From positions 1 through 55,410 of the forward strand of contig CACZIO010000014.1 in NCBI GenBank assembly GCA_902781215.1: 55,410 bases of DNA, given 5' to 3'. Shown piece by piece: positions 6,195 through 33,577 of the stretch. Below the pieces are notes generated by a model that saw only the letters and a program-made list of their open reading frames with translations, was not told where the DNA came from and did no database searches. The stretch's first letter is position 1, and every line of letters begins with the position of its first letter. The DNA comes from an uncultured Lachnospiraceae bacterium (GTDB lineage: Bacteria > Bacillota > Clostridia > Lachnospirales > Lachnospiraceae). The position numbers and the translations under genes are program-made.

Positions 6195-6249
6195 GAAAAA
6201 TCGATCGGCAGGCGCGCTTGCCGTCAACGTGCATCCGTGCTGCATCCGA

Positions 6250-6374
6250 CAAACCTTCGGTTTGCGGGCGCGTTTATCTCGATGGGGGATTGTGACCCGT
6301 CACTGAGACGAGCAAGCTGCAGCTTTTATCCCACCGCTTATAGAAGCGGGGATCTTCCCTCACTGAGATAAAAG
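6250..6374. repeat. Structured intergenic repeat element, copy 1
   Basis: This element of about 125 bp is alignable end to end with 33454-33577. It contains a UUCG-loop hairpin (CAAACC/GGTTTG, 6250-6264) and an outer stem TTTATCTC (6273-6280)/GAGATAAA (6365-6372). Inside these are a short stem GTGA/TCAC around CCCG (6292-6303) and a hairpin CCGCTT/AAGCGG around ATAG (about 6332-6347). Stems are conserved by compensatory changes in the second copy. It may be an uncharacterised RNA or an IS200/IS605-like palindromic remnant. No transposase is nearby. It lies about 55 bp upstream of the hydratase -35. Confidence 0.6.
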
Positions 6375-6409
6375 AAACCCGTGCAGAGGATCGCTCCACC
6401 GCACGGGTT
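6366..6409 (-). terminator. Terminator of the small membrane protein transcript
   Basis: AACCCGTGC (6376-6384) and GCACGGGTT (6401-6409) form a 9-bp stem. On the minus strand it is followed by TTTCTTTTATC. It lies about 80 bases beyond the stop of the gene at 6491. Its T-run overlaps the closing stem of the repeat element. Confidence 0.8.
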
Positions 6410-6490
6410 CAGGATTTCCGGGTCACCGCTCCTCCTCAGAGAGGGAGGATGCACTGCCTCGTCTGTGATACCTGCCTGACCGATCTGTTA

Positions 6491-33441: not shown

Positions 33442-33453
33442 TCCTGCGGGAAT

Positions 33454-33577
33454 CAAGACTCGCTTGCGGTGCGGAGCGTTTATCTCTGCGAGGGATTGCG
33501 GCCCGCCGCCGAGACGGTCAGGTGCAGCTCTTATCCCGCCCCTTATAGAAGCAGGGGCTTCCTCCACTCTGATAAAA
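33454..33577. repeat. Structured intergenic repeat element, copy 2
   Basis: Matching copy of 6250-6374. It keeps a short 5' hairpin (CAAG/CTTG, 33454-33466), GCGTTTATCTC, and GGGATT followed by the stem GCGG/CCGC around CCCG (33498-33509). GAGACG, the TTATAGAAGC loop region and the closing GATAAA also remain. In the middle stem two base pairs differ from copy 1 and both sides changed, which keeps pairing. It lies 12 bp upstream of the lipoprotein -35 and about 75 bp upstream of the plus-strand PPTase gene. Confidence 0.6.

Follow-up and report, generated by a model that had tools for sequence, protein, structure and literature searches.

A gene-less repeat of up to four hairpins in Lachnospiraceae genomes, probably a non-autonomous mobile DNA element

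Group IIC introns insert beside terminator hairpins, and PATEs of the IS200/IS605 family have hairpin ends and produce no target duplication. Nearest in kind to the element analysed here are the REP/REPIN repeats and the bcr1 repeat. REP units are described as 20-40 bp long with a GTAG or CGTC tag, the CGTC-tagged REPs as palindromic repeats without a dedicated transposase (PMC3733652), and bcr1 of the Bacillus cereus group as a dispersed, structured repeat, 147-167 bp long, that shows traits of mobile elements (PMC2267715). Two copies of our element lie in a 55,410-nucleotide stretch of DNA from an uncultured Lachnospiraceae bacterium (contig CACZIO010000014.1, positions 1 to 55,410), which is part of a 3.33-Mb draft genome (G000) and is called the window below. 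Like the REP, BIME and REPIN repeats the element is short, palindromic, multicopy, mostly intergenic and gene-less; unlike them it has several distinct hairpins in a fixed order over about 130-240 bp, with no RAYT link found. Its ends, read by eye, are TTCAAG, GTCAAG or AAAGAG and TAAA, with neither a GTAG nor a CGTC tag. By description, size and architecture set it apart from the CGTC-tagged REPs, and its hosts differ from those of bcr1, a repeat likewise compared by description. With group IIC introns it shares insertion beside terminator hairpins; it differs from them in that no ribozyme core or reverse transcriptase was noticed on inspection, and Rfam scans of the window and eight element loci returned no intron family. 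It differs from PATEs in having no ends in common with the Y1 or TnpB loci examined. The defining features of REP/RAYT repeats, PATEs and MITEs that were tested are lacking in the element.

The two elements in the window are, in our judgement, probably copies of a mobile DNA element, non-autonomous and made up of hairpins only. Alignment of copies in related genomes showed the element to be longer than the bounds drawn in an earlier, sequence-only reading of the window: at full length it comprises four hairpins, P1-P4, and no gene. The left-end motif is accompanied by hairpin P1 (GACTCGC-nn-GCGAGTC) and followed by GCGCGCC. P2, for example GGATGCGG...CCGCATCC, is a stem that includes an inner hairpin and leaves an ATCTTCC-like segment unpaired, and P3 (GCATCC...GGAG) has an extension that may be present or absent. 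P4 is the right-end stem of roughly 10-20 bp, built as TTTA-arm...arm-TAAA with a possible inner insert, and long bodies carry an inner hairpin, P5, and repeat the arm complement a third time in the middle. Subfamilies are set apart by their P4 arms, which read TTTATCTCAGTGGGGG in F1 (the subfamily of the window), TTTATTCTTCATCGCG in F2, TTTAACTCAGTGGGGG in F3, TTTTAACTCATAGGAAAT in F5 and TTTAACTCAGTCGGAG in a subfamily outside the genus. F3 copies have no P3, some matches in the window's own genome span the right part only (TATAGAAGCGGGG...GAGATAAA), and internally deleted copies retain both ends.

Copy 1, of subfamily F1, was delimited as a whole recognisable element at 6204..6373 on the + strand from a leader-model match (6204-6277, 33.3 bits, E 3.7e-6), the BLAST family and the alignment. 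Its P1 is not recognisable and its P2 is degraded, so that P3-P4 are retained with a P2 remnant (GGCAGGCGCGCTTGCC ... TGCATCCGTG, 6207..6239, from sequence and model match). All further parts lie on the + strand: P3 (CTGCATCCGACAAACCTTCGGTTTGCGGGCGCG, 6240..6272), read from the sequence and with a helix that covaries; the P4 left arm (TTTATCTCGATGGGGGA, 6273..6289), which the predicted fold pairs with the right arm; a loop with the left arm's second complement, the middle copy (6290..6311), in a layout common to F1, F2 and F3; P5 within the long body (TCCCACCGCTTATAGAAGCGG, 6329..6349), read from the sequence; and the P4 right arm, which is the right end by predicted fold and sequence (CCCTCACTGAGATAAAA, 6357..6373). 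A hairpin adjoining copy 1 outside the element, at 6376..6412 with no strand assigned, has hairpin scores of 11.5 and 12.0. Copy 2 (33453..33577, + strand) is internally deleted with both ends retained, as indicated by a BLAST match at 33473-33577 and by its left end, TCAAGACTCGC, which begins at 33453. It consists, on the + strand, of the 5' part of P1 (TCAAGACTCGCTTGCGG, 33453..33469), a left end as in full-length copies, and of the P4 left arm (TTTATCTCTGCGAGGGA, 33479..33495) and the P4 right arm with the right end (TCCTCCACTCTGATAAAA, 33560..33577), both read from the sequence; P2 and most of P1 and P3 are gone, and there is no match to the leader model. The sequence GCGTTTATCTC occurs twice in the window without mismatch, at 6270-6280 and 33476-33486. 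Both copies in the window appear to be old and to have lost some of their parts. At 6273-6373, and in long bodies generally, the left arm can pair with either the middle or the end complement, making two exclusive folds possible; this alternative pairing is seen in F1, F2 and F3 despite their differing arm sequences.

The sequence-only reading had placed the two elements at 6250-6374 and 33454-33577. Both are present there, with the blocks they were said to share at the expected coordinates and in identical order, but copy 1 extends left to about 6204 and copy 2 starts at 33453. Their similarity is beyond chance (copy 2 is 78% identical to copy 1, BLAST E 9.6e-16), and further copies exist, with 20 BLAST matches to copy 1 in its own genome, itself included. 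That reading had also pointed to an inner stem, GTGA-CCCG-TCAC in one copy and GCGG-CCCG-CCGC in the other. The description is true of these two copies; however, all four pairs form in only 3 of 12 copies read (14 were tried and two were unmatched by the pattern), and the stem therefore does not characterise the family. The 5' hairpin fared better, as its pairing despite sequence change is real and covaries in both the genus and the family-wide sets described below.

BLAST gave matches in 5 of 41 relatives, all within the genus, and in 14 of 62 genus genomes when another copy served as the query. A covariance-model search, which the sequence-only reading had proposed, extended this range to 17 of the 62 genus genomes (1 to 43 matches each, up to 55 candidates scored per genome), with no match in the other 45, and to 57 of 299 family genomes sampled from 298 genera (11 candidates scored per genome). 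The 21 named loci returned by one pattern scan belong to MAGs labelled Lachnospiraceae or Eubacteriales and to Sarcina sp. DSM 11001; one of these MAGs is from sheep duodenum, and the RUG-numbered MAGs bearing the element we take to be from the rumen. Sarcina sp. DSM 11001 (L094, L105) stands under Clostridiaceae in the NCBI taxonomy. Phage, plasmid and viral records held no match to the copies or exact patterns used as queries, and nothing in the literature surveyed (titles and abstract openings, mainly of open journals) was recognised as this repeat.

Evidence that the element moves comes from sites that hold it in one genome and lack it in a relative, gain and loss not being distinguished. 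We compared genomes G044 and G049, which are 91-94% identical over their three longest aligned blocks. At site 1, G044 holds a 176-bp element (TTA/TTCAAGG...GAGTTAA/CTGTC, slashes marking the junctions) where G049 is empty (TTA/TTTTGTTCC), and the BLAST blocks reach within 10 bases of the element on both sides. At site 2 the element is in G044 and unrelated sequence occupies that place in G049, and at site 3 a whole element in G049 corresponds to a remnant in G044. At site 4 the G049 element lies directly past a stop codon (GTT-TAA-CTCAGG...CCTT-GAATTCCGG) and G044 is empty (TAA-GAATCCGG), with a terminator-like hairpin further on in both; this junction was read by eye because the gene end is variable, the BLAST blocks stopping some 200 bases short of it and resuming about 70 beyond. 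In another pair of genomes a right part of about 70 bp in G010 is missing from G062 between blocks of 97-98% identity. Filled and empty sites support the idea, raised from the sequence alone, that the copies are palindromic mobile remnants. Near-identical copies occur in four genera and are abundant in three. The 16-base arm of the subfamily outside the genus, allowing at most two mismatches, occurs 166 times in G180, 77 times in G088, 60 times in G368 and three times in G216; a reversed-arm control gave none in G180 or G088 and two in G216, which therefore holds little more than one copy. The 50 left ends read in fetched loci fall into near-identical copies of 129 bases (24) and of 190-193 bases (17) and copies of other lengths (3), the remaining six having no readable right end. 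Loci L166 (G069) and L253 (G008), in two genomes of the genus, are 99.2% identical over about 1.4 kb including the element, which suggests recent transfer or assembly contamination.

Placement of the element is not uniform with respect to genes. In the subfamily outside the genus, 33 of 43 copies with enough flank meet a converging open frame at the right end, defined on simple open frames as at least 90 codons ending at most 200 bases from, or inside, that end. Fifteen of these frames use the TAA of the element, always at the same offset, as their stop and one stops a base off, four read further into the element and 13 stop ahead of it. For 16 of 20 in stop register the probability is 2.5e-5 if frame entry is random, in a test that, like the hairpin threshold, was set after the pattern had been seen; the register could also be favoured by selection against protein tails. 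Converging genes are found on the right side in 33 of 38 cases and on the left in 12 of 37 (Fisher 1.5e-6). When seven stop-register proteins were compared with NCBIfam, five matched a profile through to its final or penultimate position (CobA 177/177, MetA 303/304, signal peptidase I 161/162, RecD2 712/713, Rrf2 131/132); for HemW the best model ends at 353/361, with 388/390 reached by a lesser one, and one protein has no NCBIfam family. Judged by how far the profiles run, these genes seem to have their proper ends. In 12 of 43 copies a hairpin begins no more than 30 bases from the left end, as against 4 of 43 at the right end and 38 of 400 at random places, a pattern that fits a place for the element between stop codon and terminator.

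Within the genus, stop register was seen in 5 of 19 F3, 1 of 22 F1, 0 of 24 F2 and 0 of 15 F5 copies, and a terminator-like hairpin after the right end in 13 of 15 F5, 5 of 22 F1, 4 of 24 F2 and 1 of 19 F3 copies, against 10 of 199 in the control (the F2 counts leave out one copy, L087). Of the F1 copies in the window, copy 1 has such a neighbouring hairpin and copy 2 does not. As F1 and F2 rarely show stop or hairpin placement, end-of-gene placement rests on the other subfamilies. Family-wide, the terminator-like hairpin lies on the right in 10 of 23 and on the left in 4 of 23, those four being two tandem pairs. Flanks are AT-rich, those of fetched copies yielded no motif, and possible target duplications of at least 4 bases occurred in 2 of 43 copies of one subfamily against a shuffled mean of 3.8, none above chance. 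A role of the element end as a promoter -35 was rejected on the evidence of a related subfamily. There a -10 box, sought at -35 spacing next to the element, turned up no more often than in shuffled flanks, with 5 of 6 matches reached in 0 of 50 cases (shuffled mean 2.2).

In the explanation we favour, the folded DNA of the element would be recognised by an enzyme acting in trans and its P4 end joined just past a stop codon or terminator at gene 3' ends, and copies would later decay through internal deletion and template switching in the palindromes. Action as DNA is suggested because the genus set is without strand asymmetry and the element is mobile. That no autonomous copy or mobilising enzyme was found counts against this explanation. 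More tentatively, and with somewhat more doubt than conviction, we propose that the element represents a separate, family-wide class of minimal mobile element, with four hairpins and no gene or known transposase, oriented at gene 3' ends so that its terminal TAA serves as stop codon or its end is joined to a terminator, and mobilised by an undescribed enzyme. Small palindromic mobile DNA is the best label for it, short of the discovery that its enzyme is new. Small palindromic repeats are widespread; the interest of this one lies in a fold that is conserved across a family of gut bacteria although the sequence varies, and in a placement that in some hosts is tied to stops or terminators. Together these suggest a rule by which insertion does no harm, and an enzyme worth seeking.

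Covariation in the stems is strong. A nine-row model had both-sided change at 12 of its 39 pairs, a number reached by 0 of 500 shuffles. This model was used to find the genus loci, with 106 matches in 100 of them. In the resulting genus set (103 distinct rows) the conserved pairing with compensatory change noted in the sequence-only reading holds for 35 of 39 pairs, with 393 both-sided cells against 118 in shuffles and 90.8% of cells paired against 22-47% when the structure was slid, values that are flattered by model-based selection of loci and an alignment fitted to the structure. The family-wide set (25 distinct rows) gave both-sided change in 24 of 30 pairs, with 142 cells against 38.9 in shuffles; alignments A3 and A4 were fitted to the structure. 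Such a signal could arise without selection if template switching kept the palindrome arms matched, a possibility that is compatible with mobile DNA and that we regard as unlikely, if still the strongest of the alternatives. It would account for arms that are entirely different from one subfamily to the next, one-sided changes being few, for the body of L323, which resembles an inverted duplicate of its right half, and for the loss in L216 versus L236 of a whole body hairpin between short repeats. Template switching alone leaves unexplained, however, the sharp ends at many unrelated sites and the stop-codon register. Palindrome correction may nevertheless contribute part of the covariation, and compensatory change outside genes is not by itself proof of a functional RNA.

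Less likely again is a structured RNA, either a 3'-UTR element or a small RNA, selected for its RNA fold. Strong covariation, the conserved unpaired segment and a subfamily that sits in gene 3' ends in a single orientation would suit it, as would the family-wide mismatches (G-U 11 versus A-C 3). The genus set, however, has G-U 91 versus A-C 95, so that the two sets combined neither indicate nor exclude RNA. Presence and absence at orthologous sites speak against it, as does the mixed gene context in the genus: among 67 separate copies, 19 with an open frame across them were set aside and the other 48 were +/- (13), +/+ (12), -/+ (9), -/- (6) or had a gene on one side only (8). On the same mixture a cis-regulatory RNA upstream of genes was rejected. 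At the gathering threshold Rfam gave no match in the window and none in eight element loci, and the unnamed RNA family that the sequence-only reading had considered is not borne out.

The element might instead belong to the REP/BIME-type repeats moved by a RAYT, or to the PATEs moved by an IS200/IS605 Y1 transposase, which we consider improbable. It is palindromic, intergenic and gene-less with target duplication not above chance, 44 of 62 genus genomes carry Y1 genes of RAYT-like and IS200-like type, and Y1 matches are found in five of eight other element-bearing genomes (G180, G187, G087, G368, G216). The other three, G088 (86% complete), G144 and G079, have no Y1 match in their draft assemblies, and the only two in G044 are both long-form. 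At 20 long-form Y1 loci there was no element match (best E 0.45, none below E 0.4) and other palindromes in many, so that no RAYT link was found. The IS200/IS605/TnpB descent considered in the sequence-only reading found no support in the window's own genome, where the two copies gave chance-level BLAST hits only against 10 Y1 and TnpB loci (best E 0.39) and the IS200 ends read differ from those of the element. The mobilising enzyme seems not to be a Y1 transposase. Many of the long-form RAYT-like Y1 genes in several genus genomes (L138-L149 and L151-L154) have nearby palindromes of their own, for example of AACCGTCCCC- and ACCCCAGAGGTC-type, unlike the element, and the four-contig genome G051 has 38 Y1 transposase matches and no leader-model match.

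A classical MITE with terminal inverted repeats and a DDE transposase is very improbable, for although the P4 arms resemble a 17-bp inverted repeat, both sit in the right part while the left end is P1, and target duplications do not exceed chance.

Some copies adjoin one another. In L392 (616-831) and L400 (661-880) two elements form a direct tandem, in which the P1 hairpin of one takes the position that a terminator-like hairpin has beside other copies. An F3 leader copy in L225 (G049:C87:1-900) is repeated in direct tandem with a 142-base period, and in L070 (G048:C310) a single terminator-like hairpin separates an F1 from an F2 element, the two being turned towards each other (about 638-876).
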